NCBI RefSeq assembly: GCF_001687335.1
Contig: NZ_MAGO01000002.1
Location: 1 to 64,000, forward strand
Origin: Dissulfuribacter thermophilus
Lineage (GTDB): Bacteria; Desulfobacterota; Dissulfuribacteria; Dissulfuribacterales; Dissulfuribacteraceae
DNA: 64,000 nucleotides
Direction: 5' to 3'
The notes below the pieces were generated by a model. It did no database searches. It saw only the letters and a program-made list of their open reading frames with translations, and was not told where the DNA came from. Position numbers and translations under genes: made by a program. The stretch's first letter is position 1, and each line of letters begins with the position of its first letter. Of this stretch, positions 12,406 to 32,664 are shown in pieces.

Positions 12406-15195
12406 ATGTTGAACCTAAAACTTAGAGATGAATTCCTGGGCTCGCAGATGCCGGGGACGGCTATCACGCTGCGCCGGCCGGACAACACTGGTGCCGCTCA
12501 GCGAGACGCTGACTACATCCTCTCTATCACCTATCCGACGGCAGACGTCCAAACAGCCTTGCGAGCGGTAAGTAGCGCTCGCGCTCGTCGCCCGGTTGTA
12601 TTGATGGGGGATCGGGGACGCGGTAAGTCGCACATCATGGCAGTGATGCACCACGCTATCCAGTCGCCGGAACGCGTGGAGGCATGGGCCAAGGAATGGG
12701 GAAGCAGGCTTGGTTCGGATGTCCTCAGCGGCCTCACCCTTGAACGAGGGTTCGTTGCGATCTCGGAACCCGTCCACAACCATGAGTACCCCTTGCTTTG
12801 GGAGCTCCTGTTCGACAGGCACCCCAAAGGCGAGTTCTACCGCGGCAAGTTCCAGCAGATGGGGCAACCCTATCCACCTCGCTCTCTCCTCGAGGAGATG
12901 TTCGAGGACCAGCCTGTTGCCCTGATCTTGGACGAATTTCAGAAGTGGTTCGATGGACTCAGTGACCAGCCGGGGGCGGAAGGGATTAAGTACAGGACGT
13001 GGGCGGAGAACTTTATCCAGAACCTCTCTGAGCTCTCGAAGGATCGTTCCGACATATTGATCCTCGTGATCTCCGTCTTGAACAACAACACGGAAGCGTT
13101 TCGCCAAGTCCATCGGGACGGTCCCGTCCTCATCGACTTCCGTGGCCCGACCGCCAAGCAGGACCGTCAGAAGCTATTGCTCTACCGCCTGTTTGAAAAC
13201 CGGGAGTACATCCCGAGCACTGATATCCAGGCCCTTTCAGCCGCTTACGCTGGGGAACGTTTCCGTCTGCGCTTTTCTCACCTCTCAGATGCTGAGCGCA
13301 ACCGGATCGTCTCTGAGGTGGAAAGCTCGTGGCCCTTCTCGCCGGAACTCCTGGAGCTTCTCGAAGACCAGATCCTGATGGCGGAAGCCGCTCAGGAGAC
13401 CCGAGACCTCATTCGCATCCTGGCTTCTGTGTTCCGTGCCAGGGGAGATGACGTGCCGGTCATCACACCCGCGGACTTCTTCGTGGATGACGATGCCTGC
13501 GGTGTGCAGTCTCTCCTTGATTCCATCGCCACCGTAGGGGAGCAAGAGAAGCTCCGAGAGGTCGCTCAGCGGAACCTGGAGACGATTAAAACGGTTGGCG
13601 CTCCCATTCCTCATGCGCGGGAACTGGTAAGCGCATTGTGGATACGTTCCATGTCTCCAGGACGGAGCGCCGGGGGCACGCGCCAGGAGCTCCAACTGGA
13701 CATCACACGAGAGCAACCCGTAGACGATAACTCCTTCCACGGTGAACTGGTCCAGTTGATAGAGAACAGCATCAATATCCATGGAGAAGAGAGCCCAGAT
13801 GGCCGTCTGCGTTTCGGCTTGGAAGAGAACCCCAGGTCCAAGGTGCGGACATGCGCCAAGAATGACAAGCTCTGGCAACCCGGCGCCACGTCCGCCACGG
13901 TGGGTCAGACGGTTTACCCAGGTAAAGACATAGAACACATCCGGAACACGCTCCGACACATCCTCGTCCCGGAGACCAGGCAGCCTGCATCTCGGGTAAT
14001 CGTGTTGGGGCCGAACTGGAGGGACGATCCCTGGTCGGACGTCGATGATGTGGACAAGCCCTCTCAATGGGACCGCCCCGTACTCATCGTTGTCCCTGAC
14101 CCTTTGGAGATGAACGGTGGGAACCGGGTCGCGGGCTTGGGAGAGTGGCTGGCCAAGCACGTGCCCGCAAAGCGCAACACGGTCCGGTTCCTCTTACCAG
14201 CCGAAGGTGCCAAGGGCATCTATGTCGACGAGGAACTCATCTTCTGTGCCAGGTGTTCTTACCTCACCTCCATCGCTTGGAGAGATGACCTGAAGTACCG
14301 GGCACTGAAGGAGGATTTCGACAAGCCGCTCCGGGACTCCCTGAAGAAGAGATATGATCGGTTTGCCGTGCTGCGGCGGTGGGACTACCGCAATCCGGAA
14401 TCGTGTACCTTCGATGTGGAACGGATTGGGGCACAGGGTGGCGAGATCCCTTCCGCCGTCGAAGAGAAGTTGCTCGCTGACCTCTTCGACCCTGCGGATT
14501 TCCAGAACCTCGTGCTAGAGCGGGCCAAGGAGTCTTGTTTCGTAGGAGATCTCCTTGACGAACTAACCGAACCTCCTCCGCCGAATACGCGGGACGCCAT
14601 ACCTTTCCTCGGTGAGACCGCAATCTACGAAGAGATCCTCAAGGTCGTTGCCAGAGGGAACGTGGTGGTCAACGTCGGTGGGACCTGGGTAGGACGGCTG
14701 CCGGACCACACGAATGACGAGGAGGCCCTCCGTTACGTCCGGTCCATGGCGTTCCGCTCCGGGCAAGAGATGCGTCAGGTCCAACTCGGACTACCCGCGG
14801 CAGTGGGCGGGACGACGGTCACCGGTCCCGGTCCCCAGCTCCCGGTGTCGCCTCCGCCTGGGGTGACGCCGGTAGGACCCACTCCACCGCCAGGGACCGG
14901 AGGGTTCGGTGGCCAAGGTAGTGGACCTGTGCAGCCACCTACGGGAGGTGACGTTGTTACACCCCCAGCCGCAGGCCCCGTGCAGGTTCGGCGAACGGAT
15001 GCACCAAATACAGGCATTAACCTCTCCGGGTACTTTGAGAAATGGGGGATCCCCGCTGGCAAGACCCTGAGCGCCGCAAAGATCGAATTCAATAATCTGA
15101 CCGTCCAGCAGCTCAAACAGGTCCTGCAACGCCTGCCCTCGAGCATGCGGGCCTCCCTGGAGATCACATTCACAGAGGAGGAGGGTGACGCGTGA
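12406..15195 (+). CDS. DUF499-domain ATPase of an anti-phage operon
   Basis: This 929-residue P-loop protein has Walker A GDRGRGKSH at residues 68-76 and Walker B LILDEFQ at about 173-179, followed by a large alpha-helical region. A proline/glycine-rich linker (about 790-860) joins a small C-terminal domain. DUF499 ATPases occur beside DUF1156 methylases in predicted anti-phage loci and relate to the large ATPases of BREX-like systems. It has a good GGAGG site before the ATG. Its stop overlaps the PglZ start (TGATG). The substrate is unknown; motor or scaffold activity is inferred. Confidence 0.85.
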   Translation: MLNLKLRDEFLGSQMPGTAITLRRPDNTGAAQRDADYILSITYPTADVQTALRAVSSARARRPVVLMGDRGRGKSHIMAVMHHAIQSPERVEAWAKEWGSRLGSDVLSGLTLERGFVAISEPVHNHEYPLLWELLFDRHPKGEFYRGKFQQMGQPYPPRSLLEEMFEDQPVALILDEFQKWFDGLSDQPGAEGIKYRTWAENFIQNLSELSKDRSDILILVISVLNNNTEAFRQVHRDGPVLIDFRGPTAKQDRQKLLLYRLFENREYIPSTDIQALSAAYAGERFRLRFSHLSDAERNRIVSEVESSWPFSPELLELLEDQILMAEAAQETRDLIRILASVFRARGDDVPVITPADFFVDDDACGVQSLLDSIATVGEQEKLREVAQRNLETIKTVGAPIPHARELVSALWIRSMSPGRSAGGTRQELQLDITREQPVDDNSFHGELVQLIENSINIHGEESPDGRLRFGLEENPRSKVRTCAKNDKLWQPGATSATVGQTVYPGKDIEHIRNTLRHILVPETRQPASRVIVLGPNWRDDPWSDVDDVDKPSQWDRPVLIVVPDPLEMNGGNRVAGLGEWLAKHVPAKRNTVRFLLPAEGAKGIYVDEELIFCARCSYLTSIAWRDDLKYRALKEDFDKPLRDSLKKRYDRFAVLRRWDYRNPESCTFDVERIGAQGGEIPSAVEEKLLADLFDPADFQNLVLERAKESCFVGDLLDELTEPPPPNTRDAIPFLGETAIYEEILKVVARGNVVVNVGGTWVGRLPDHTNDEEALRYVRSMAFRSGQEMRQVQLGLPAAVGGTTVTGPGPQLPVSPPPGVTPVGPTPPPGTGGFGGQGSGPVQPPTGGDVVTPPAAGPVQVRRTDAPNTGINLSGYFEKWGIPAGKTLSAAKIEFNNLTVQQLKQVLQRLPSSMRASLEITFTEEEGDA

Positions 15196-16163
15196 TGGAC
15201 TCTAATCCCTGGGTACAGCTCATCCTTGACGCCCCTTCGGTCTCCGAGGGATGGAAGGCCATCTTCGGGAGGCTCGCCGAGCTTGCGTTGTCGTCCTCAT
15301 CCCCGGTAGAGCTCCACAACCACACCGTCGCTCCGGACCGCTTGCTGGCCGAAAGCGCTTGGGAGCTGTGGACCGCATATCAAAGCGAAGCGCCAAAGAC
15401 AGCGGACGCGCTTAAGAAGTGGTGCTCGGAACCATCCCCAAGCGGTAGGGCCATCCTTGTACTGGATGCCCTCTCCTTGCGGGAACTGCCCCTTCTGCTG
15501 GGTGGGGCCGAGAACCGTGGCATCAAACCGGTAGATGTCCGGGTGACGGGCTCCGAGGTGCCGTCGGACACTGACCAGTTCGCACGTGCCCTGGGAGCCT
15601 CTTCGCGCAGTAGTCTCTCGAACAACGGGGCCCCCTCTGGCTTTGTGCCGTTCGACGGTTCGGTCTATACAGACGTGATCAGTCTGCCCTTTGAGGACAG
15701 CGCAGGGGGGATCCCCGCTGCGAGCAACCTCTTCATCTGGCACACGTGGTTGGACGACCTCATCCACGTCCACAAGAAGCTGCCGGACCAGATCTACAAA
15801 GCCGCTTCAGCGACCCTTCAAGGCGATGGCTTCTGGAAGTTCGTGGATCGCCTGCGCCAGGGGCGCAAGCTGGTGATAACGGCTGACCACGGGTATGCGG
15901 TCAGCCGTCTCTTCTCTAGCGAAGAGATGGACCCCGATGTGATCGAGACGCTGCGGTCGACCTTCGGAGCTGCGCGTTACAAGAAGGCCAACGAGCCGTG
16001 GCAAGACCGCTTCATGCCCCCTCTGGTCACGACCGAGAACGGCTGCCACGTCGTGATGGGGCAAAGGAAATGGAAAGTGCAGGGAGGCTTCCCGCATCTC
16101 TGTCACGGAGGCCTGAGCTTATTGGAGGTGACCGTGCCGTTCGTGGAGTTGCCACCGCTGTGA
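15195..16163 (+). CDS. pglZ: PglZ-domain protein (alkaline-phosphatase superfamily)
   Basis: This protein of about 322 residues carries the two signature metal-binding blocks of PglZ: LVLDALSLRELPLLL with Asp91, and VITADHGYA with Asp231 and His232. PglZ proteins are core components of BREX and Pgl systems, where they act with a methylase and a large ATPase. This version is short compared with the 700-900-residue BREX PglZ and seems to be essentially the catalytic domain. It sits between the DUF499 and DUF1156 genes. ATG 15195 is preferred over GTG 15192. Confidence 0.82.
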   Translation: MDSNPWVQLILDAPSVSEGWKAIFGRLAELALSSSSPVELHNHTVAPDRLLAESAWELWTAYQSEAPKTADALKKWCSEPSPSGRAILVLDALSLRELPLLLGGAENRGIKPVDVRVTGSEVPSDTDQFARALGASSRSSLSNNGAPSGFVPFDGSVYTDVISLPFEDSAGGIPAASNLFIWHTWLDDLIHVHKKLPDQIYKAASATLQGDGFWKFVDRLRQGRKLVITADHGYAVSRLFSSEEMDPDVIETLRSTFGAARYKKANEPWQDRFMPPLVTTENGCHVVMGQRKWKVQGGFPHLCHGGLSLLEVTVPFVELPPL

Positions 16164-16166
16164 CGG

Positions 16167-19100
16167 ATGAAAGAGATGAGCATGAAGGATAGCAACAACA
16201 TGTTGCCTGGTATGGAATCCCTGGTTGCCCGGGAACCTGTGAAGAAGGGGCGCCGGAAAAAGAAGGCCAACACCTTTGAGCCCCCGAACCTCGGTAAGGC
16301 TACCCGTTTGCCGGTGCCTGACTTCGGCAACCCGGACCGGCGTCCCGTGTGTCTCGAAGTGGACTTCCCTATTGCGCCAATCAATGCATTAGCAAGGCTT
16401 GAAGCAACTTCAGGTGCTGCTAAGAAACCTATATATCAAATGTCAAAATGGTGGGCTCGGCGCCAATCCAGCGTCTTCCGCAGCATGTTGATTGCCGCTG
16501 CGGTGGAGGCGCCAGATGATCCCACGAAGGCGGCGAAGTTCGTTTGGGATCACTACTACAGCAACCACCAGAAGGCCGGACACTTCAAGCGACTGCGGGT
16601 GCTCGACCCCTTCATGGGCGGCGGGACTACGCTCGTGGAAGGAGCGCGGCTCGGCTTCCAGATGGTCGGTGTTGACCTCAACCCTGTCGCCTGGTTCGTC
16701 ACCAGGAACGAACTGGCGGCCAGCGACCCGGAACAGGTCAGGGCCCTCTTCGAACACATCGAGGCCGAGGTCAAACCCCTCGTCCAACCCTTCTACACCA
16801 CGACCTGTCCTCGTGGTCATAAGGGCAGGTGGGTCGACATAGAGACCGGACAGATCGTCGATATCGACCCTATCGACCTCCCGGCGGAAGAACGCAAGCG
16901 CTACCGCTGGGAAGGTCCGGAGGTCATCTATACATTCTGGGCGAAACACGGCTCGTGTCAGACCCGCGGTTGTGGCCATCGTACTCCGGTTTTTCCTTCG
17001 CTCGTCATCGCTAAGAAGCGAATGACCACATATTATATTGAAGCCACGTGCTCCTCGTGTGGTCATTCTTTCAATGTGGAATTGGGCGAAACTCGGATAG
17101 CTCCTGGGGCAGAACGGGTCGTGCTTGACGACGAACCGAGTTTTGCAGAAACCACACAAGAGTTCGCTTCTTTGTTAAAGACCTATGATCGAGGCAATGC
17201 CCACGAAAAGATCGAACGGATTGGGCGTCTTTTGGAGTTGGTTGATCAGGAGCCAGGCCTACGATGTCCGCGGTGCGGCAGCTTCGCAGGCGATTCCATA
17301 AAGGCGGTTCTCGAGCGGCACGCCCGGGCCAGACGGGCGAGTGACCGCAAGAAGAAGGACTTCGGCATCCGACGTCGCCCGATTCAAATGTACCTTTTGC
17401 TCCATCCTCAATGGCTGGAAGGGACACCAGGATCCATTGACGGAAGAGATCTTGGAGGTTTTGCGGGCGCACCACCAGACGCCACAGTCGCGTGGTTCAA
17501 TAAGCGTAGGGAAAATCTAGTCTTAATTGAAGTGCGAGGGGGAGAGCTTCCTAATGAGGTCACCCTTTCCGATGGAGTGACTATTTCACCGAACAAAGGG
17601 TCTGTACCTGATCAGGCAAGCTTTACTTGTGCCGCGTGTGGGCGCAATCAAGGTGTATTCGAGGCTACAGAGAAAGCCGAACGTACACAAGCCATTGCCG
17701 CCTATGCTCTCCAGTGTCATTGTCCGCTGTGTGAGAAGGAAGGTTTCAATTATGGCGGACGTTACTTCAAGGCTCCTGATGAATATGACCTGAAACGCAT
17801 TGAACGGGCTGTATGGGAGTGGTCTGAACGTAGAGAGGATGATTTAGGCCAATATTGGCCACGCCAAGAAGTACCCTACGGCGAAAGAACTCACGAAAGA
17901 GACTCTTTACCACGCTGGGGGTACACCCATTGGTGGAAGATGTTCAACTCCCGGCAGCTTCTCGTCCACGCACAGTTACTCCGAGCCATCACTAATGCAC
18001 CAGAAGAGAAGTGGTCGCTGGACGTCAGAGAGCAGGTTCTAGGGGCATTCCAGCAGTATCTACGAAGCCAATCTATGTTCTCGATTTATCATGTTAGAAA
18101 CGATCAGATCGCGGCCGCCTTGTCTAATCCCAACTTCTATCCAAAGCAGCTGGTTATTGAAACCTGTGTCTTCACATCGATTGGAAGTGGGCGCTGGGGG
18201 GCATATGTCGACGGAGTACTAAAGGCATTAGACTGGATCAAGCATCCAACAGAGCCTGTTGTCCAAGGCGATAATGCTGTGGTGGGTATGGAGGATGTTA
18301 TACCTCCTTCAGCAAATATGTTGCTGTGTGGCTCGTCAACGGATCTTGCCGTACTAGAGGAAACGCTCTTCGACTTGGTGATCACCGATCCTCCGTTTGG
18401 GGACAATCTCTTCTACGCTGACCTGGCAGATTTCTTCTACGTCTGGCTGCGCATCCCGCTCCTGAAGTGGTACGAGGGCCTTCCCGAACGCGCATATTTC
18501 GAGCCGGAATTCACTCCGAAAACACTCCAAGCTATTCGTGATCCTGCGCAGCATCCAGACGACCGGGAAGACTGGGAGAAAGACCCCTTCGTGCGCAAGG
18601 AACACGTAGAGGTCGTCCGCAGGTTGAGCGGTGACGAGGCCATCCAGGAACGTGACCCCAACCCGCTCTATCGGCCAGAGCCGGCTTCAGAGTTTTATCG
18701 GGAAACACTAACCGCGTGCTGGGCCGAGGCCGGACGACTTCTCAAGGCCGGCGGACTCATGTCCTTTACTTTTCACCACAGCAAAGACGAAGCATGGGTC
18801 GATGTGCTTGAGGCCTTGTTTAACGCCGGTTTTACGCTGGTTGCTACATATCCCATAAGGAGTGATGAAACAAAAGGTGAGAATGCACAGTTTGGGTCGC
18901 AGCTAATTGAGTATGACATCATCCATGTTTGCCGTAAGCGGCTGGAAGAACCCCAGCCGGTTTCCTGGGCGCGCATGCGCCGTTGGGTGAAAGGAGAGGC
19001 GACCCGCCTCAAGGAACTTCTGGAGCACTCACACGGAAAGGATCTGCCCGAAGCGGACCTCCGGGTCATCCTGCGGGGGAAGGCCCTGGAGTTCTACAGC

Positions 19101-19727
19101 CGGCACTATGGCCAGGTCTACACAGGTGATGGTCAGGTGCTCTCCGTGCGGGACGCGCTGTTGGGGATCAACCAGCTACTGGATGACCTACTCCAGGGCG
19201 AGGGCGAGAACGGCAAGCGCCGCCCACCGGACTCCGCCGAGCCGGCTTCGCGCCTGTTCCTGCGCATCTTCCAGGGACGCACCTCCATGCCGCGGGACGA
19301 GCTCCACAAGACCCTTCGAGGCACCGGGGTCTCCCAGGGAGACCTGGAGGCGCGCGGTTGGATCCGGGTCGTTGGCACCACGGTCCACGTGGTCCCCATC
19401 GCGGAACGCTTCCAGTACTTCACCACGCCGGGACGGAACCGCAAGGTGTTGAAGACAGACCTCGACCAGGCGCACTTCCTCATCGGAGCGGCCATGCCGG
19501 GAAGCGGCATCGACGTGACCGATGAGCTGAACCGCGGCTCTTTCAAGGTCAAGAAGTCTGTCGACGCCCTCTTGGACTGGTACGCCCAGACAGACCCGGA
19601 CGATGGTGTCCGCCGAGCCGCACGCCTTGCCCTCGACCTGCTCGGACACTGGCGCGCCCGACCTGCGAAGGGACCGGAGGTGAGACAGATGACCTTGTTT
19701 GATCGACTCGAAGCGGAGGACGACTGA
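16167..19727 (+). CDS. DUF1156 adenine-type DNA methyltransferase
   Basis: This 1186-residue protein has the SAM-binding motif LDPFMGGGTT at residues 146-155 and the catalytic motif DPPF at 741-744, an N6-adenine/N4-cytosine-type order. Several CxxC pairs (CPRGH, CSSCGH, CPRCGS, CAACGR, CPLCEK) between the motifs suggest zinc ribbons and possibly target recognition. It probably marks host DNA so that the ATPase/helicase partners act on unmodified phage DNA. Base composition is uneven along the gene: GC-rich ends, with clearly more AT-rich stretches near 16380-16450 and 17000-18400. Confidence 0.88.
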   Translation: MKEMSMKDSNNMLPGMESLVAREPVKKGRRKKKANTFEPPNLGKATRLPVPDFGNPDRRPVCLEVDFPIAPINALARLEATSGAAKKPIYQMSKWWARRQSSVFRSMLIAAAVEAPDDPTKAAKFVWDHYYSNHQKAGHFKRLRVLDPFMGGGTTLVEGARLGFQMVGVDLNPVAWFVTRNELAASDPEQVRALFEHIEAEVKPLVQPFYTTTCPRGHKGRWVDIETGQIVDIDPIDLPAEERKRYRWEGPEVIYTFWAKHGSCQTRGCGHRTPVFPSLVIAKKRMTTYYIEATCSSCGHSFNVELGETRIAPGAERVVLDDEPSFAETTQEFASLLKTYDRGNAHEKIERIGRLLELVDQEPGLRCPRCGSFAGDSIKAVLERHARARRASDRKKKDFGIRRRPIQMYLLLHPQWLEGTPGSIDGRDLGGFAGAPPDATVAWFNKRRENLVLIEVRGGELPNEVTLSDGVTISPNKGSVPDQASFTCAACGRNQGVFEATEKAERTQAIAAYALQCHCPLCEKEGFNYGGRYFKAPDEYDLKRIERAVWEWSERREDDLGQYWPRQEVPYGERTHERDSLPRWGYTHWWKMFNSRQLLVHAQLLRAITNAPEEKWSLDVREQVLGAFQQYLRSQSMFSIYHVRNDQIAAALSNPNFYPKQLVIETCVFTSIGSGRWGAYVDGVLKALDWIKHPTEPVVQGDNAVVGMEDVIPPSANMLLCGSSTDLAVLEETLFDLVITDPPFGDNLFYADLADFFYVWLRIPLLKWYEGLPERAYFEPEFTPKTLQAIRDPAQHPDDREDWEKDPFVRKEHVEVVRRLSGDEAIQERDPNPLYRPEPASEFYRETLTACWAEAGRLLKAGGLMSFTFHHSKDEAWVDVLEALFNAGFTLVATYPIRSDETKGENAQFGSQLIEYDIIHVCRKRLEEPQPVSWARMRRWVKGEATRLKELLEHSHGKDLPEADLRVILRGKALEFYSRHYGQVYTGDGQVLSVRDALLGINQLLDDLLQGEGENGKRRPPDSAEPASRLFLRIFQGRTSMPRDELHKTLRGTGVSQGDLEARGWIRVVGTTVHVVPIAERFQYFTTPGRNRKVLKTDLDQAHFLIGAAMPGSGIDVTDELNRGSFKVKKSVDALLDWYAQTDPDDGVRRAARLALDLLGHWRARPAKGPEVRQMTLFDRLEAEDD

Positions 19728-20227
19728 TGCGAGAGATGTCCAGTAGCGCATGGCTGCGCCGCGGCTCGAGCATCGTCTTTGACAAGCACAGCTTGGGCCC
19801 ATTGATCACGGACGGCTGCCTGGTTTCCCTGCGCGAGGCGCTCTCGTGGATGAAGTCATGGCCAGCGCAACCGCCGGATGACAGGCAGACCGTGCTGGTC
19901 GGCGGCCTGGAGACCTGCCTGGAGGTGTTTTCCCCGGAAGACGCAGAGGCGTTCCTTCGGAACCGCATCAAGCCATTCGTCCTGGAGTTCCAGTCGCGTT
20001 GGGACCAGCGAGGGTTGGTGTTCGGCTTCGGCACTCTAGAGAAGTCGTTCGAGGTCACAGCTTCCCAAGAGGAGGTGTTGTTCCTCCGGCGAGACCGGAA
20101 GCGGGTGCGTCTTTCCTACTCGTTGTGGGACGGCAGCGCCACGATGAATGTCACCCGATTGGTACGCGACGACAGACAGACGGGCAAGAGGGTCACGCTT
20201 GGATACTATGTCCCAAGGATATCTTGA
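19727..20227 (+). CDS. Uncharacterised 166-residue protein of the defence operon
   Basis: The start overlaps the methylase stop (TGATG) and the end overlaps the helicase start by 20 bases, so it is firmly part of the operon. The sequence begins MREMSSSAWLRRGSSIVFDK and shows a mixed alpha/beta pattern with ETCLEVFSPEDAEAFLRNRI and KSFEVTASQEEVLFLRRDRK. I see no catalytic motif. Related loci carry a small DUF3780 protein at a comparable place, but I cannot confirm homology. It may be an accessory or specificity subunit. Confidence 0.7.
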   Translation: MREMSSSAWLRRGSSIVFDKHSLGPLITDGCLVSLREALSWMKSWPAQPPDDRQTVLVGGLETCLEVFSPEDAEAFLRNRIKPFVLEFQSRWDQRGLVFGFGTLEKSFEVTASQEEVLFLRRDRKRVRLSYSLWDGSATMNVTRLVRDDRQTGKRVTLGYYVPRIS

Positions 20228-23000
20228 CCTACAGCCGGGCCGGAAAGTAGCCCATCCGGAGCTGGGCGAAGGCGTCGTTGTCGGCGTCGAGCCGACGGGG
20301 TTCGTCCGCGTCTTCTTCCGTGCCCTGGGTGAACGCCAGGTTCCCGCTGAGGTTCTCCGTGAAGCGGAGACTTGGACCGACCGGGTCATCTCCGGCCTGC
20401 GGCCTTTCACGCCCGAGGCCCTGGAACGGCTGTGGCTGGCGCTGGAGGCTGCTGAACTGCCGCTCATGGAGAGCGCGGCCACCCTGACCTCCGCCAAGGT
20501 CGACCTCTTGCCACACCAGGTAGTGTTGGTGCACCGGGTAGCCAATGCAAGGCCTCGGCGGTTTCTCATAGCCGACGAGGTCGGGCTTGGGAAGACCATA
20601 GAGACCGCGCTGATCCTCCGGGAACTCGCATCCCGCGGGGAGCTCCGGCGGGCCCTGATGGTCGTGCCGGCAGGGCTCGTGGACAACTGGCGAAGGGAGC
20701 TCAACGAGGTATTCAACCTTGACTTCGAAGTGTTTGGGACGGAAGGCGACGTGACGGACCGGAAATCAAACGCCTTCGCCAAGCACAACCGGTTGATCGT
20801 ATCCATCGACACGCTGAAGAGGCGTGCGAGGGTCAAGAGGCTCTTGAAAGCGCCGCCGTGGGACTTGGTGGTGTTCGACGAAGCACACCATCTCAGCGCG
20901 TATAAGACGGGAAACAAGGTTCGGAAAACAGAGAACTACAAATTGGCAGAGGCACTCCGGCAGCACTGCCGCGACCTCCTACTATTATCGGCTACCCCAC
21001 ACCAAGGTGATCACTTCCGGTTCTGGATGCTTCTCCGCCTGCTCGACCCGACCCTGTTCAGGGACGAGCAGGACATGGTTGAGAACCGACACCGGCTGAA
21101 CGCGGTCGTCATACGCCGCACGAAGGCGGATGCCTGTACGTCCGACGGTGGCCCCCTGTTCGCTCGACGAGTCGTCCACACCGAGGGGTTCACGCTTTCC
21201 GAAGACGAGCGGAGGTTCTACGGGGCCCTGCTGGATTACCTGCGTGACGGATACAACTTGGCGGCGAAACAGGGCCGACAGGGACGTGCCCTGGGCTTCG
21301 TGATGACGATCTTCCAGAAGATCGCAGCGAGCAGCTTTGCGGCCGTCAAGGCCACACTACAGCGGCGGCTCCTTATGTTGACGATCCAGGAAGCTGTCGA
21401 GCGGGACGAGTTGCTCGACGTCGACGGACGGGACCGGATACTGAAGGAAGCCCGCGACCTCATTCGGGAAATCTACGACCTCCCCGACGATGCGGTCGGG
21501 AGAGCTCAAGCCGAACAGCTCCTTGCCGAGGCCAAGGTCCAACTCCTGAAGAAACGGAAAGAGACAGCCGCCTTCGTGAAGAAGGCCGAGAGTTACGACG
21601 ACACGGAGATCGCCGCAGCAGTGGGTGAGGAGTCTGCCGCGACGATGGTCTCTGTGGCCCTGCCGGAAGAACGCAGGAGGATCCAGGAGCTCCTTGAACA
21701 GTTTCCAAACGGCATGGAAACGAAGACGCAGGTGTTGATCGACGCCCTCGGGCAGCTGTGGCGGGTCAACCCCCGCGAGAAGATCGTGATCTTCACCACC
21801 TATCTCGGCAGCATCGCCGGGCTCAAGGACGCCATCGAGAGGACGTTCCCCGGCAAGGGCGTGGAGGTACTCAAGGGAGGCGATCACGGGGCCAAACTTG
21901 CCGCCCAACGTCGGTTCAGGCGCAAGGACGGACCGCAGGTCCTCCTCTGTACGGCAGCCGGCCGGGAAGGTATCAACCTGCAGTTCGCCCGGGTGCTCTT
22001 CAACTACGACCTCCCGTGGAACCCAATGGACCTGGAGCAGCGCATTGGCCGCATCCACCGTTACGGACAGCGGCACACCGCGCAGGTCTACAACCTCGTG
22101 GCGACAGACACCATTGAAGGCCAGATTTTCCTCCTGCTGGAAGAGAAACTCCACGGTATCGCGCAGACACTCGGCAAGGTCGATGAGCATGGCCAGGTCG
22201 CGGAGGATCTCCGGGCCCAGGTGCTTGGACAGTTGAGTAGTCGCCTCAGCTACGACCGACTCTACCAGGAGGCCATACTTGATCCCTCCCTCAAGCGGAC
22301 GCGCCAAGAGCTTGAGGTGGCAATGACTAACGCCAACCTCGCCCGCGAGATGGTCTTTGAACTCTTCCAGGATCTCGACAAGTTCAACCTCGGCGACTAC
22401 AAGCGCTTCGATGATGAAGGACGTGGCATGCGGCGGCTTGTCGCTTTCGTACAGCGAGCGGCACGTCTGGACGGCGGAGAGTTCCGGCCGCGTGGGGAGG
22501 ACGTCTATGAGCTGGTCTTGCCGGGCCAGGATGCCCTGCTCTTCGCCACGGATCGCGACAAGGCATTACAGCAGGAGGAACTCAATCTGTTGGGCCTCGA
22601 GCATCCCGTCGTCAAGCAGTGGCTGGACCGCTACACGTCGCTGAGCCCCGAGGAGCGGGCGCTGATTGGGAACATCGAGGGCAATGGTATTGAGGCCGGA
22701 CTCATCACCATCTGGCAGGTGGTTGTCCACGGCAAGGGCGGCCAAGTTCAGCAGCGAATCGTCCGGCTGGGTATCTCACCCACCGGTGAGCGGTCCCCCT
22801 ACCTCGAACGACTGTCGAAAGACCTCCTGAAGGCGTGCCCTTGCAGGAAAGGTGTTTCTCAGGACAGGGAAACGGTCGGTCGCCTGGTCAACGGCACTGC
22901 TTCTGAGCTCCTGCATCGGGAGCTGGTCTATTCCGGGTTCTTACCAGAAGGAGCGTCGTACTCGTCTAAGCTGCTGGCGTGCCTGGAGGTGGCTCCATGA
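20208..23000 (+). CDS. SNF2/DrmD-like DNA helicase of the anti-phage operon
   Basis: 930 residues from ATG 20208, chosen because the earlier frame from 20148 lies inside the preceding gene. Superfamily-2 motifs are complete: DEVGLGKT at 123-130, DEAH at 224-227, LLLSATPHQGD, and in the second lobe CTAAGREGINLQFARVLFNY and QRIGRIHRYGQRHTAQVYNL. It is close in style to the SNF2-like DrmD helicase of DISARM. A long C-terminal region follows. It probably translocates on invading DNA. Thirty-nine bases separate it from the SIR2 gene. Confidence 0.9.
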   Translation: MSQGYLDLQPGRKVAHPELGEGVVVGVEPTGFVRVFFRALGERQVPAEVLREAETWTDRVISGLRPFTPEALERLWLALEAAELPLMESAATLTSAKVDLLPHQVVLVHRVANARPRRFLIADEVGLGKTIETALILRELASRGELRRALMVVPAGLVDNWRRELNEVFNLDFEVFGTEGDVTDRKSNAFAKHNRLIVSIDTLKRRARVKRLLKAPPWDLVVFDEAHHLSAYKTGNKVRKTENYKLAEALRQHCRDLLLLSATPHQGDHFRFWMLLRLLDPTLFRDEQDMVENRHRLNAVVIRRTKADACTSDGGPLFARRVVHTEGFTLSEDERRFYGALLDYLRDGYNLAAKQGRQGRALGFVMTIFQKIAASSFAAVKATLQRRLLMLTIQEAVERDELLDVDGRDRILKEARDLIREIYDLPDDAVGRAQAEQLLAEAKVQLLKKRKETAAFVKKAESYDDTEIAAAVGEESAATMVSVALPEERRRIQELLEQFPNGMETKTQVLIDALGQLWRVNPREKIVIFTTYLGSIAGLKDAIERTFPGKGVEVLKGGDHGAKLAAQRRFRRKDGPQVLLCTAAGREGINLQFARVLFNYDLPWNPMDLEQRIGRIHRYGQRHTAQVYNLVATDTIEGQIFLLLEEKLHGIAQTLGKVDEHGQVAEDLRAQVLGQLSSRLSYDRLYQEAILDPSLKRTRQELEVAMTNANLAREMVFELFQDLDKFNLGDYKRFDDEGRGMRRLVAFVQRAARLDGGEFRPRGEDVYELVLPGQDALLFATDRDKALQQEELNLLGLEHPVVKQWLDRYTSLSPEERALIGNIEGNGIEAGLITIWQVVVHGKGGQVQQRIVRLGISPTGERSPYLERLSKDLLKACPCRKGVSQDRETVGRLVNGTASELLHRELVYSGFLPEGASYSSKLLACLEVAP

Positions 23001-23039: not shown

Positions 23040-24551
23040 ATGAACGAACATGAATGCCTCTCGCCGAAATCAGGCGATTCTAAACAAGATGGGGATTTGA
23101 ATCGCATTTTCGAGGCCATTCGGGGCAACCAGGTCTTAGTCGGAGGGCAAGATAACATGTGGAAACAACTCGCCCCTTTGCTTGCTGAAGACCCTGAAGA
23201 CGATGAGCGCCGCCAAAAGGTACTGAAGAAGTACCCGGAAGTTCTGAAGGAACTCCGAATCTGCGTTGGAACCCTTCTCAAGATGGACAATGTCTCATTC
23301 CTTCTCGGGGCTGGAGCGTCTATGGATGCAGGAGGTGTCTCTCTTGCGAGAATCCCCTTTGAAGTAGAACAGTACCTACTCGAAATAGGAATGGCAGATG
23401 AGACGCCAGCCACTTGGCTCATGCTGTTCTACGATATTCTTGCAGCACTAACAAACACTAAAAGCTGTGACCCCTCTCAACGAAAAGAAACTGTTTCTCG
23501 TATAGTTAATGGACAACAACCAAAAAAAGACTATTATCTTCCCCGTAAGAATCTCGAAGAGTTTCTAACCACTCTACATACGTGGCAAGCTGCCTTGGTT
23601 GGCGAGACAATAACCGTTGCTATTGGTAACGGTCAGGAACTCTCGATCTCCCGTCTCGACCTAAGCGATCTGATTATGCACCTCACCGAAGGCCTTACAA
23701 AGGCCTGCTTATTGCCTCTCGAAGATAAGCGTGATGCACTTCTCATACATCGTCGACTGTTGAAAAAAGTATTAACACGCCCGCTCAACCTTCGGCGTGT
23801 CAATCTGTTCACTCTGAACTACGATACGCTTTTAGAACAAGCTGCCGATGCAGAAGGAGTTGTATTGGTTGATGGTTTTGTCGGCACGCTGCGCCGCGTT
23901 TTTCGTCCTGAATCCTTCGATCAGGATTTCTACTTTCCGGCCCATACTACAGAGGGGCGAGTGCATCGTCTTGATCGAGTACTACATCTTTACAAATTGC
24001 ACGGTTCGATTACGTGGCACCGAGAGGATCCGAGCTGGGAGAATCCTTACGGACTATATGCCACATTCTTCAATGAAAACATCCATCACGATGATGTTCT
24101 AATCTATCCAACTCCCTTGAAATATGGCCAGGTGCTTGGGCTGCCATATTCTGAATTGTTCCGTCGTCTCGAAAGCTGTATCGTGCAACCTCAGTCAGTA
24201 TTGTTTGTTATCGGATATGGATTCGGGGATGAACATGTGAATACCCTAATCCGGCAGGCCCTTTCAGTACCAAGTTTCACGCTAGTAGTTGTTGATCCGA
24301 ATCCACAAAACGATTTCGTTAACCAGCTGGAGCAACATGGAGACCAGCGCGTATGGATAGTGAAAGGCTGGGGAAACGATGACGATAGAGTACTGTGGGG
24401 TTTAGGGACATTCAAGGGATTTGTCGAACATCTTCTTCCCGACCTCCGTGAGGAAGAAATCCAGCAAAGGATTATTGAAACATACAATGCCCTGGATTTT
24501 CAAAAATCCACTGACTCGTCCCCGGCAGGAGGGGGAAGCGATGGCGACTGA
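23040..24551 (+). CDS. SIR2-family NAD-consuming effector, partner of HerA
   Basis: This 503-residue protein has SIR2 motifs in order: FLLGAGASMD (GAGAS at 90-94), FTLNYDTLL (Asn260, Asp262), LYKLHGSITW (His321), and FVIGYGFGDEHVNTLI. Defence SIR2 proteins cleave NAD+ on phage infection and cause abortive arrest. Gene pairs with HerA are an established anti-phage system (SIR2-HerA). The gene is visibly more AT-rich than the operon before it. Its last 11 bases overlap the HerA start. Asn260 and His321 match the catalytic pair of the family. Confidence 0.88.
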   Translation: MNEHECLSPKSGDSKQDGDLNRIFEAIRGNQVLVGGQDNMWKQLAPLLAEDPEDDERRQKVLKKYPEVLKELRICVGTLLKMDNVSFLLGAGASMDAGGVSLARIPFEVEQYLLEIGMADETPATWLMLFYDILAALTNTKSCDPSQRKETVSRIVNGQQPKKDYYLPRKNLEEFLTTLHTWQAALVGETITVAIGNGQELSISRLDLSDLIMHLTEGLTKACLLPLEDKRDALLIHRRLLKKVLTRPLNLRRVNLFTLNYDTLLEQAADAEGVVLVDGFVGTLRRVFRPESFDQDFYFPAHTTEGRVHRLDRVLHLYKLHGSITWHREDPSWENPYGLYATFFNENIHHDDVLIYPTPLKYGQVLGLPYSELFRRLESCIVQPQSVLFVIGYGFGDEHVNTLIRQALSVPSFTLVVVDPNPQNDFVNQLEQHGDQRVWIVKGWGNDDDRVLWGLGTFKGFVEHLLPDLREEEIQQRIIETYNALDFQKSTDSSPAGGGSDGD

Positions 24552-26826
24552 CTTTGAGATAGGCCGGGTAGTCGCGATAGATACTTCCCAGGTCACGATT
24601 GAGCTTAATCGAGATCTAAAAGCATTAACCCTCTCCACATACGAAGATACTGTCGAAGTCGGACGGATCAATTCCTATGTCATTATTCCAGTTGGTGCGA
24701 GACGCGTTGTGGCCATGGTAACCCGCGTCGTAATGACCGAAGAAGCTGAACTTCGAACGGATAAGACCATGGTCGCACTGCCTGCTGCGCGTCGTTTGAT
24801 GAAAGCAACTATGATCGGAACTATAGACGGGGGAGACTTTACGCAAGGTATTAGCTCGTTTCCCGTTCTAGATTCACCGGTGTTGATCGCAACCAAGGAG
24901 GATCTAACAGCGATATTTGGCGGCAAGGAGCATACAAACCGCACCCCCAAGAAGGGAGTAGGTTACTGCATCTCGATTGGTTCTTCTGGAGTTTTTCAAG
25001 ATTATGAAATCAGGATCGATCCAGACAAGTTCTTTGGGAAACATGCCGCAATCATTGGGAGCACAGGCTCCGGAAAATCTTGCACCATTGCAACAATAAT
25101 CCAATCAATCCTCCAAATGCCTGAGGTTGAACGCACACGTTTCATCATACTAGATACGAACGGAGAATATCGCGAGGCATTTCAAGAGGAGCGTAATGGC
25201 TCCTGGGTGGATGCACATCCGAGTTTTCGATGTTTATATATACCAACAGACCCCAGCAGACCTCGTGATAATTTGGTTATTCCTTATTGGTTTATGAATT
25301 CTAACGATTTCGTACGGCTCTTTCGCGCTTCTCCGGGTGTTCAAAGACCTGTTCTGATTGACGCCCTTACGTCTGCACGCGAAGGAGAAAGGGCTCAGGA
25401 CGCATGGCGATCTATTCGAAGCGATCTTCTTACGGAGGGAAATCGTATATTGTCAGCATGTCGAGGAACGGAATCCAGGGATGCAAGATTGATTCGCCAG
25501 CTGTGCGACGAAGTGCTGAAAGTTTTGGAATGCCCAGATAATAAAGACGTCATAGCCGAGTTTATTGAGCATTATCCCAACATTACTGAGGACCAGATTA
25601 AAGAGACGTTCAAGGAGGTTCGTGATATCGTTCGTGAGGGAATTCAAAGAGAAGGGCAACAATACGAACGATATGCAGCTATTGGCGCTGACAAACGACG
25701 GCGGATTGAGAAGCTCCTAATGCCACTATTGGGCACATTAACGGCCAGGGGGACAAAAAGATGGAGTGAGGGCGGAGTAGCTACCGCGGATACTCCGAGG
25801 TATTTCAGCAAAACACGATTTCGCGACATACATCTCGAACAAGCAATGTCTCGTGAAGATGCGAGTATGTCTCGCGCTAGAGATAACTGCGCGACAATGC
25901 TGATGCGCATTTACCGGCTATTTGAGGATAAGCGCTTCGAATTTCTTTTCGGACCGACCGATGGAGATTGGCCTAAACCAGCCCATGCCCTCGCAACGTT
26001 TATGAGAGACATTCTAGGTTTACCAAGTGCAGATGAGAAAAGAATTCAGCTCTCCCCAGCATCGAAAGAAAACAGTGAGACAGAAACAGAGGCGGATAAG
26101 CCACGGATAGAAGAAGGCATCCTGCCTTTTTATGATCGGCAGCGGAAGGAAAATGATAAGCCATTCAACATAGTTATTGTTGACCTTAGTTTGTTGGCCG
26201 CCGAGGTCCTTGAAAATGTCACGGCGTTGATTGGCAGATTAATTCTTGAGTTCTTGCAGCGTGCCGGCGAGCGGCAAGTTAGCGGGATAGAGCGAGGTGA
26301 GTTACCTGTGGTCTTGGTGTTAGAGGAAGCACAGAATTACGTTCGAGCACCAAGGAGCCGTGACGACGAATCGATTTCGCGGGATGTGTTCGAAAGAATA
26401 GCGCGCGAGGGCAGAAAGTTCGGCCTGGGGCTGATCGTGGCTTCACAGCGGCCTAGTGAGCTCTCGAAAACTGTGTTATCGCAGTGCAGCAGTTTCGTAG
26501 TTCATCGATTGCAGAATCCGGAGGACTTGCGCTACTTTCGGGAGATTGTTCCTGGGATATATAATCAGTTGTTAGACCAACTGCCTGCGCTTGCCCCACG
26601 GATGGCGCTGGTACTTGGTGAATGTGTGTCCGCACCGGCATTAGTATACATGCGAGAAGCAATCCCAACACCAAGAAGTAAAGATCCGAAGTTCTGGGAA
26701 CGATGGATCGAAAAGTCACCGCCGATACCGGATGTTGAAGGTGTATGTAGGAAATGGGAAGGAGAAGATGTGGAGGCTAATCAGACGGAACGGAAATCTC
26801 CCAAAGGTGAACAAGTGGTGGATTGA
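24541..26826 (+). CDS. herA: HerA/FtsK-like hexameric ATPase, partner of SIR2
   Basis: 761 residues from ATG 24541, preceded by GGAGG and overlapping the SIR2 stop; the longer frame from 24421 lies within SIR2. It has an N-terminal HAS-barrel-like domain, Walker A GSTGSGKS at 173-180, Walker B VLVLEEAQNYV (Glu595, Glu596) and the arginine-finger segment ASQRPSELSKTVLSQCSSFV. HerA forms hexamers that translocate DNA. With SIR2 it forms large complexes combining NADase with DNA-dependent activity. A region of about 30 residues between the motor halves is charged and probably flexible. Confidence 0.88.
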   Translation: MATDFEIGRVVAIDTSQVTIELNRDLKALTLSTYEDTVEVGRINSYVIIPVGARRVVAMVTRVVMTEEAELRTDKTMVALPAARRLMKATMIGTIDGGDFTQGISSFPVLDSPVLIATKEDLTAIFGGKEHTNRTPKKGVGYCISIGSSGVFQDYEIRIDPDKFFGKHAAIIGSTGSGKSCTIATIIQSILQMPEVERTRFIILDTNGEYREAFQEERNGSWVDAHPSFRCLYIPTDPSRPRDNLVIPYWFMNSNDFVRLFRASPGVQRPVLIDALTSAREGERAQDAWRSIRSDLLTEGNRILSACRGTESRDARLIRQLCDEVLKVLECPDNKDVIAEFIEHYPNITEDQIKETFKEVRDIVREGIQREGQQYERYAAIGADKRRRIEKLLMPLLGTLTARGTKRWSEGGVATADTPRYFSKTRFRDIHLEQAMSREDASMSRARDNCATMLMRIYRLFEDKRFEFLFGPTDGDWPKPAHALATFMRDILGLPSADEKRIQLSPASKENSETETEADKPRIEEGILPFYDRQRKENDKPFNIVIVDLSLLAAEVLENVTALIGRLILEFLQRAGERQVSGIERGELPVVLVLEEAQNYVRAPRSRDDESISRDVFERIAREGRKFGLGLIVASQRPSELSKTVLSQCSSFVVHRLQNPEDLRYFREIVPGIYNQLLDQLPALAPRMALVLGECVSAPALVYMREAIPTPRSKDPKFWERWIEKSPPIPDVEGVCRKWEGEDVEANQTERKSPKGEQVVD

Positions 26827-26898: not shown

Positions 26899-27057
26899 AT
26901 GCGATTTGTTCACACAGCAGACTGGCACTTAGGTAGGGTCTTCCATGGCGTGCACCTCACAGAGGACCAGGCGTATGTGTTGGACAGATTAATAGAGATC
27001 GTGCAGGACGCTCGCCCTGATGTTGTAATTATCGCCGGCGACGTTTACGACTGTTAA
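26899..27057 (+). pseudogene. sbcD: SbcD/Mre11-like exonuclease, N-terminal 51 residues only
   Basis: The frame reads MRFVHTADWHLGRVFHGVHL and continues to DVVIIAGDVYD, then one extra residue and a TAA. These are phosphodiesterase motifs I (D-x-H) and II (GDxxD) of the SbcD/Mre11 calcineurin-like nuclease, at normal spacing from a normal start. Everything after motif II (over 300 residues) is gone. The sequence right after the break carries IS21-like terminal repeats. Mre11-type nucleases often sit beside HerA genes. Confidence 0.85.
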
Positions 27058-27059
27058 AG

Positions 27060-27392
27060 GCCCTGTCAATTTCCCAGGTAAGGGCCCTAAAAATTCCCCA
27101 CTTAGTTGAATGCGACATAATTTTATATTTATGTAATCTGTTTTACTGGCATCAATCGAGGACCAGCACTTCTGGGGCTTCGCATCCTTGACTGCTTTGT
27201 AAAGCGTATTTCACCGATAGCGTTTGCACGCAACCTCTTACTCTGGCTCAAGGACTTTATTCTGTCATACCCTTCATCCTTAGGCCCATGTCTAAGATAT
27301 TTCCTAGACAATAGGACCCTTTAATTATTTATTGACTAACCATATGGGGATTTTTAAGTGCCCTACCCTGGGGAAATTAAAGTGACTTTAAC
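27060..27392. mobile_element. IS21-like element reduced to its two ends
   Basis: AATTTCCCAGGTAAGGGC followed by CTAAAAATTCCCCA at about 27069-27101 is matched in inverted orientation at about 27350-27385 (AATTTCCCCAGGGTAGGGCA then CTTAAAAATCCCCA). These are IS21-style long terminal repeats. The roughly 250 bases between hold only a short minus-strand frame (RKYLRHGPKDEGYDRIKS) and no istA/istB. The remnant directly truncates the sbcD-like gene. A third, isolated end lies at 32573-32615. Confidence 0.6.
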
Positions 27393-27412
27393 ACACTTAT
27401 TAATAGGGACTT

Positions 27413-27799
27413 TTATACCAGTGGCAGACCAGCAATATATTTGAAGTGCTCGTCTTTTGAAAACAACTTCAGGCCGTGCTGGAACGCAGTAGCAGCAATC
27501 CAAATATCATTTGTTGGAATAGGCCTTCCTATCTTTCTTAAATTCCATACTATTTCAGAGTAAAACTCAGACGTATTTTCATCTATCCCGTAAATAGTTA
27601 CCCGGGGGCTGTCCAAGAACTCTTCCAATTCGTTCCTATTCTTTGATTCCCATTTCCCCAGCTTGAACCCGGTTAGGAGTTCCCCTATGCTTACAACAGA
27701 AAAACCGATCAATTCAGCTCGTCTGAGAATTTCGACCACCTCATCATGGCCTCTTAAGGCGCAGGAATATATGTTAGTATCTATTAGAAGCCGCCTCAT
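27413..27799 (-). CDS. vapC: VapC-type PIN-domain toxin
   Basis: This 128-residue PIN protein starts at the ATG overlapping the antitoxin stop (ATGA). It shows the first acidic residue in LLIDTNIYSCAL (Asp7), the central helix with SVVSIGELLTGF, and the distal block PTNDIWIAATAFQHG. These acidic positions coordinate magnesium for RNA cleavage. The family typically cuts tRNA or rRNA. It lies downstream of its ribbon-helix-helix antitoxin as in other vapBC operons, and both look intact. Confidence 0.9.
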   Translation of the reverse strand: MRRLLIDTNIYSCALRGHDEVVEILRRAELIGFSVVSIGELLTGFKLGKWESKNRNELEEFLDSPRVTIYGIDENTSEFYSEIVWNLRKIGRPIPTNDIWIAATAFQHGLKLFSKDEHFKYIAGLPLV

Positions 27800-28062
27800 T
27801 TCCACAATTCCACATCGATTTTCCTCTGACTGTTGATAGCCTCTTGAATTTCACTAAATTCCTCTTCTGTCCACTTTCCAAAAAGATGGTCCAGGTCATC
27901 ATATCTCCTGGTATATTTTTTATCTTTTGCGATTCCTACCTTTTGCATAATGGCGTCTAATACCAACTGATTTACACTTTTTTTTTCTTTGCGGGCAATC
28001 TCTTTTAGTTTTGAAGAGAGTGCTTCATCTATACCACGAATTGTAATGGCTTTTGATTTCAT
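27796..28062 (-). CDS. vapB: Ribbon-helix-helix antitoxin of the VapBC pair
   Basis: The 88-residue protein begins MKSKAITIRGIDEALSSKLK, a beta-strand plus helix opening of the ribbon-helix-helix (FitA/VapB) fold, with KKSVNQLVLDAIMQKVG as the second helix. The C-terminal tail (EEEFSEIQEAINSQRK) would wrap the toxin. It precedes vapC with a four-base overlap and presumably autoregulates the pair. Confidence 0.85.
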   Translation of the reverse strand: MKSKAITIRGIDEALSSKLKEIARKEKKSVNQLVLDAIMQKVGIAKDKKYTRRYDDLDHLFGKWTEEEFSEIQEAINSQRKIDVELWK

Positions 28063-32531: not shown

Positions 32532-32572
32532 CGCCTATCAGGTAACCCCCTTTTATTGTTGTGCCAACCAAG

Positions 32573-32615
32573 TGGGGATTTTTAAGTGCCCTATGCTGGT
32601 TGAAGTCAAAATGAC
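32573..32615. repeat. Isolated IS21-like terminal repeat
   Basis: TGGGGATTTTTAAGTGCCCT continues for about 20 further bases and closely matches the end at 27350-27392 (GGGGATTTTTAAGTGCCCTA then CCTGG). No transposase is nearby. It may be a solo end left by deletion, or a mobile end used as a target. Confidence 0.5.
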
Positions 32616-32664
32616 TCTAAAAACATAGTTTACGACGGGTTTAAGGAAATAAGCGTAAATTTTT

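Follow-up and report, generated by a model that had tools for sequence, protein, structure and literature searches.

Can a SIR2-HerA anti-phage system carry a nuclease as a third component, and does it fail once that component is lost? SIR2-HerA has hitherto been treated as a closed two-component system, for which Gao 2020 is reportedly the source. The question is raised by a stretch of 64,000 nucleotides from Dissulfuribacter thermophilus (contig NZ_MAGO01000002.1, positions 1 to 64,000; this whole stretch is hereafter the window), in which a sir2-herA pair is followed on the same strand by the beginning of an sbcD gene that ends at an insertion element (Table 1). An earlier note on this DNA had claimed that an sbcD/mre11-like third gene was cut after its motif II by an IS21-like remnant, that the original operon probably went on with Mre11 and perhaps Rad50/SbcC, and that the loss left SIR2-HerA without a nuclease partner that related loci may require.

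The SIR2-HerA pair and the interrupted sbcD gene

The pair in the window resembles the SIR2-HerA two-component anti-phage system (Tang 2023, Shen 2023 and Zhen 2024, as cited in PMC12198126 and PMC12977600) in having adjacent SIR2 and HerA genes with intact motifs. The SIR2 protein keeps the catalytic motifs GAGAS, NYD and LHGS in an alignment and matches the SIR2 chain of PDB entry 8j4u (E 6e-38), an entry that also contains a HerA-type ATPase; SIR2-HerA complexes, 8j4u and others, are among the structures with the nearest chains. HerA possesses a P-loop/Walker A motif (GSTGSGKS) and a Walker B motif (VLEEAQ), the two genes overlap by 11 bp, and full-length HerA homologues, 53-67% identical, are present in about 30 loci. 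A SIR2 with catalytic motifs and an adjacent HerA with both Walker motifs place the pair in the SIR2-HerA system, from which its clade differs in residing in larger islands (Type I restriction-modification, BREX or BREX-Related (BR) cassettes), with a minority of members carrying sbcD-sbcC right after herA. We conclude that a Type-3 BR island in the window ends, on its 3' side, in a predicted anti-phage system of two intact genes, SIR2-HerA.

Table 1. Features of the defence island in the window, with the matches on which each assignment is based.
Feature	Coordinates	Strand	Matches and remarks
DUF499 AAA+ ATPase, Type-3 BR cassette	12406..15195	+	Pfam DUF499 E 1.2e-7
Standalone PglZ, BR cassette	15192..16163	+	PADLOC PglZ E 9e-7; 69% identical in G254
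N6-adenine methyltransferase with DUF1156	16167..19727	+	PADLOC HmaB E 6.5e-32, PglXI E 1.2e-25
Small conserved gene, candidate iSTAND component (from position only)	19727..20227	+	70% identical homologue, same place in G254
BrxHII/HmaA-like SNF2 helicase	20148..23000	+	PADLOC BrxHI|BrxHII E 1.7e-102; 82% identical in G254
SIR2-like NADase (predicted), 503 aa, intact	23040..24551	+	PADLOC SIR2 E 6e-83
HerA translocase (predicted), 761 aa, intact	24541..26826	+	PADLOC HerA E 7.7e-151
sbcD pseudogene (codons 1-51, plus a last codon and stop contributed by the insertion element)	26899..27057	+	Pfam, PDB and NCBIfam matches
IS21-family element with internal deletion; retains the two inverted ends and an istB 3' relic but lacks a transposase gene	27052..27393		342 bp

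The open frame behind herA translates as MRFVHTADWHLGRVFHGVHLTEDQAYVLDRLIEIVQDARPDVVIIAGDVYDC, followed by a stop codon, and Pfam (Metallophos, E 2.4e-7), solved SbcD structures (7dog, E 1.5e-16) and the NCBIfam sbcD model (TIGR00619, positions 1-59, E 1.7e-18) agree in identifying it as the N-terminus of SbcD. It shares with the SbcCD nuclease the metal-binding motifs I (DxH; DWH) and II (GDxxD; GDVYD) and the beginning of the fold, but of phosphoesterase motifs I-V only these two are encoded, model positions 60-252 are missing, and the protein, cut short after codon 51, can have no nuclease activity. The insertion element supplies, with its first bases, the final codon (Cys) and the stop. 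The interruption claimed earlier is therefore real, except that the element's ends, placed within about ten bases of the fragment, directly abut it, and that the interval given (26899-27392) spans the fragment plus the element. Compared with the sbcD of genome G315, a close relative discussed below, the fragment has a dN/dS of about 0.15 (51 codons, a small sample), which suggests that it derived from a working gene not long ago. This low ratio and the start codon would also suit a functional SbcD-derived peptide of 52 residues instead of a pseudogene; we hold such a peptide to be extremely improbable, since it would be devoid of motifs III-V and of the cap and C-terminal domains, would owe its stop to IS21 sequence and has no counterpart in relatives, in which a conserved short form is not seen.

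The insertion element has inverted ends (TGTTAAAG...CTTTAACA), and its right-hand 127 bp match IS21-type copies from other places in the genome at 88% identity; istA is present in one of these copies. Because other genomic copies of these ends adjoin istA (rve, Mu-transpos_C_2) and an IstB_IS21 fragment, and because the remnant encloses a 30-aa relic of the istB 3' end (E 1e-6), it is identified as an IS21-family element, differing from intact members in its internal deletion and in the absence of a target-site duplication (the flanks, GTTTACGAC and CACTTATTA, differ). No sbcD-like sequence lies to the right of the remnant, which together with the lack of a target-site duplication argues for a deletion after insertion: the element would have inserted behind codon 51 of sbcD, and the rest of the gene, with whatever lay beyond, would have been lost afterwards through a deletion between IS21 copies or adjacent to one. 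An assembly artefact at the IS21 repeat is unlikely, as over stretches of 46-127 bp the remnant shares no more than about 96% identity with any of the other copies.

Neither the sbcD 3' end, which the earlier note had proposed to seek elsewhere in the genome, nor sbcC was found in the remainder of the 99.97%-complete assembly. A search for SbcC returned only a 28-bit match, which covers SbcC positions 1-51 and falls within a 1162-aa open frame that we read as SMC, and the only other Mre11-like gene is YhaO-like, with a YhaN-like partner (C2:143246). The missing 3' half was likewise not found beside the other IS21 copies (on contigs C1, C11, C13, C17 and C18), the copy on C13 lying at a contig end and leaving a small gap in this search. 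Directly right of the remnant, genes for a VapBC/FitAB-type PIN toxin and an RHH antitoxin occupy positions 27413-28062, and a further IS21-end relic (32566-32620) right after a BadF-type gene points to IS21 activity on both sides of that gene. A search for an empty site in relatives, guided by the BadF-type gene, showed no conserved neighbours of that gene in the order and so did not place the island borders.

sbcD behind herA in related loci

Relatives of the SIR2-HerA pair were gathered from genome contigs, whole genomes and viral contigs, and the 36 loci with at least 300 bp beyond a complete herA 3' end were surveyed for the gene that follows. Besides the window, sbcD stands after herA in three loci (L043, L123 and L066 in our numbering), two of which provide the order that the earlier note had suggested looking for in related genomes: L043 has an intact SIR2-HerA-SbcD-SbcC operon (SbcD 408 aa, SbcC 1091 aa), and L123 has the same genes with SbcD intact and the SbcC frame interrupted in the contig. 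In both, the herA stop and the sbcD start overlap by 4 bp (ATGA), a coupling not seen in the window, where sbcD begins 72 bp past the herA stop. The third locus, L066, carries an sbcD pseudogene that is 65% identical to L043 over residues 4-84. In the other 32 loci herA is followed by genes for Type I restriction subunits, by Fic, by other genes or by no gene on the same strand, and hsd genes lie near 22 of 38 loci. The earlier note had named homologous loci that never carry sbcD after herA as evidence against its proposal; most loci indeed do not, but 4 of the 36 do. Searches with the window's HerA gave no match in the plasmid collection at E 1e-60 and only two related loci among viral contigs, of which L123 was the decisive one, while a second class-level draw of genomes yielded, beyond loci already known, only a HerA fragment in genome G405. 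In that fragment (L142, 3215-3910) the HsdS N-terminus is apparently fused to the C-terminal half of HerA, as if SIR2-HerA had been inserted into a Type I locus and had later suffered an internal deletion.

With 32 of the 36 loci devoid of sbcD after herA, sbcD is evidently not required. The strongest form of the earlier proposal, in which SIR2-HerA depends on SbcCD as its nuclease and the system of the window is dead, can call on the intact SIR2-HerA-SbcD-SbcC operons of L043 and, save for its interrupted SbcC frame, L123. It is at odds not only with this count but also with the window and L066, where sbcD is broken and yet SIR2 and HerA are intact in the former and full-length open frames in the latter, and with published SIR2-HerA pairs, which work by themselves as two-component systems and for which NADase, ATPase and nuclease activities are reported (PMC12198126, citing Tang 2023 and Zhen 2024). 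We consider such a requirement very improbable, and the pair in the window probably still works without SbcCD. SbcD-SbcC looks like an optional, swappable add-on to SIR2-HerA.

The window does not simply share the sbcD of these loci. The HerA tree places it apart from a well-supported group (99/97) that includes L043, L123 and L066, and its SbcD is only 37% identical to that of L043, which is best read as a separate joining. The closest SbcD proteins are those of G315 (88% amino acid identity) and G058 (82%), both encoded in sbcD-sbcC pairs with no HerA, and DNA similarity to these reaches no further upstream than the sbcD ATG or a few bases beyond it. At the threshold used, a detectable sbcD match was present in one of about 16 sampled genomes of the same order, at 41% identity, so that the window's sbcD was probably acquired horizontally; no other locus was found with this sbcD lineage behind herA. 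The window's sbcD belongs to a third lineage, and taken together these relationships suggest that its adjacency to herA arose by an independent joining. The proposal that the operon once continued with Mre11 and perhaps SbcC thus has parallels in L043, L123 and the L066 pseudogene, but the window is best read as a separate joining and not as the remnant of one ancestral operon. Upstream of the G315 sbcDC, the nearest to that of the window, lies a gene for a 613-aa AAA_13/LmuB-like ATPase (L105, 8262-10103).

Exchange of front-ends before sbcD-sbcC

L043 and L123 are nearly identical in SIR2 (93%) and HerA (96%) and far less so in SbcD (63%) and SbcC (67%). Searches with SbcD in viral contigs and genomes located the L123-type sbcDC allele in L147 and the L043-type allele in L148 and L157 (genome G076), in all three behind PDC-S06, a PADLOC call for a RecF/SMC-like ATPase encoded directly upstream of sbcD-sbcC (L147, 2419-5004; L148, 2420-4996; L157). 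DNA similarity starts at the sbcD ATG between L043 and L148 and between L043 and L157, and 4 bp before it between L123 and L147; upstream of these points it is at chance level. The simplest reading is a recombination that would replace the defence front-end while sbcDC stays, and by these alignments, which comprise few loci, mostly on metagenome or viral contigs, SIR2-HerA and PDC-S06 can stand in for each other as partners of a single SbcCD module. A larger PDC-S06-SbcD-SbcC system, with PDC-S06 at its front, may exist. In L148, the PDC-S06-sbcD-sbcC genes adjoin BrxL.

Elsewhere in the phylum, sbcD stands behind PDC-S06, HsdR, Fic, AbiEii or non-defence genes, including an enoyl-CoA hydratase gene, and SbcDC is in this sense promiscuous. 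The same promiscuity lends itself to another account of the window, in which rearrangement could have brought sbcD next to herA by chance: sbcDC, whether as a mobile operon prone to enter defence islands or as one for general repair, would have landed by herA and been destroyed, with never a functional link at this site. The rarity of sbcD behind herA and the kinship of the window's sbcD with HerA-free sbcDC pairs fit this account, too. Against it, two apparently independent same-strand joinings directly downstream of herA are more than a once-per-genome gene should give, by rough arithmetic about 0.001 expected among 36 loci, and the 4-bp overlap in L043 and L123 suggests coupled translation. 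We judge an accidental neighbourhood to be unlikely, if still deserving serious weight.

We favour with reasonable confidence an explanation that combines an intact SIR2-HerA, an sbcD module broken by IS21, and SbcD-SbcC as an optional, exchangeable back-end. On this explanation, the window's SIR2-HerA would once have had an sbcD module, probably sbcD-sbcC, behind herA, and across relatives various defence front-ends (SIR2-HerA, PDC-S06 ATPase) would have been attached to SbcD-SbcC (Mre11-Rad50-like) at the start codon of sbcD. HerA, as a ring translocase docked on SIR2, would respond to invading DNA and switch on NAD+ depletion, and SbcCD, where present, might add an end-opening or DNA-degrading activity on the same DNA, as with the archaeal operon of Mre11-Rad50 and HerA-NurA. 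In archaea, HerA-NurA is co-encoded with Mre11-Rad50 (PMC12977600), which makes SbcCD plausible as a DNA-end-processing partner; the two arrangements have in common a HerA translocase encoded with an Mre11-Rad50-type pair, and differ in that the bacterial one has SIR2 instead of NurA, bacterial SbcD/SbcC and a defence-island context. A wider generalization, that SbcD-SbcC is a shared plug-in effector of prokaryotic immunity whose front-ends (SIR2-HerA, the PDC-S06 SMC-like ATPase and others) are swapped through recombination at the start codon of sbcD, and that bacteria thereby form a HerA-Mre11-Rad50 defence complex as a counterpart of the archaeal HerA-NurA-Mre11-Rad50 operon, we put forward only tentatively.

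The window itself is a decayed case of a new form of a known system, in which SbcCD is added to SIR2-HerA. It is of less interest than the fact that this optional arrangement, SIR2-HerA-SbcDC, recurs and that front-ends are exchanged. The SbcD-SbcC repair nuclease is, or once was, added right behind herA in four loci that represent two or more lineages of apparently independent origin, and the same SbcDC alleles also stand behind an uncharacterised defence ATPase (PDC-S06); if this holds, housekeeping-type Mre11-Rad50 complexes would be recruited as interchangeable immunity effectors. We found no description of the arrangement or the exchange in the open-access library searched, in which one jumbo-phage paper mentions HerA, SIR2 and SbcD together.

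The Type-3 BREX-Related cassette upstream

The genes at 12406-23000 fit the published Type-3 BR system (PMC12839542, from which the definition is taken), sharing with it a DUF499 ATPase, a standalone PglZ, a DUF1156 N6-methyltransferase and a BrxHII-like helicase without a nuclease fusion, although the PglZ and DUF1156 profile matches are weak, the latter (E 1.6e-4) falling slightly under the Pfam cut-off. The 166-aa gene at 19727, in the place expected for iSTAND, has no Pfam match. SIR2-HerA is an extra neighbour relative to the published system, both in the window and in genome G254, and the terms SIR2, Mre11 and SbcD are absent from the main text of PMC12839542. G254 holds a near-relative of the cassette (61-82% identity across most genes; 81% over residues 1-794 of the DUF499 ATPase) that also ends in SIR2-HerA, but without sbcD. 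SIR2 and HerA are only 54-65% identical between the two islands, compared with the 61-82% of the cassette proteins, and GC content falls sharply at position 23000, the helicase/sir2 junction, from about 61% to about 48%. The drop would fit a SIR2-HerA unit that has an origin of its own and, combined with the identity contrast, suggests that this unit was exchanged. Between its helicase and SIR2-HerA genes, G254 additionally carries another HerA-like gene (DUF87), a distant one (L116, 9001-11139).
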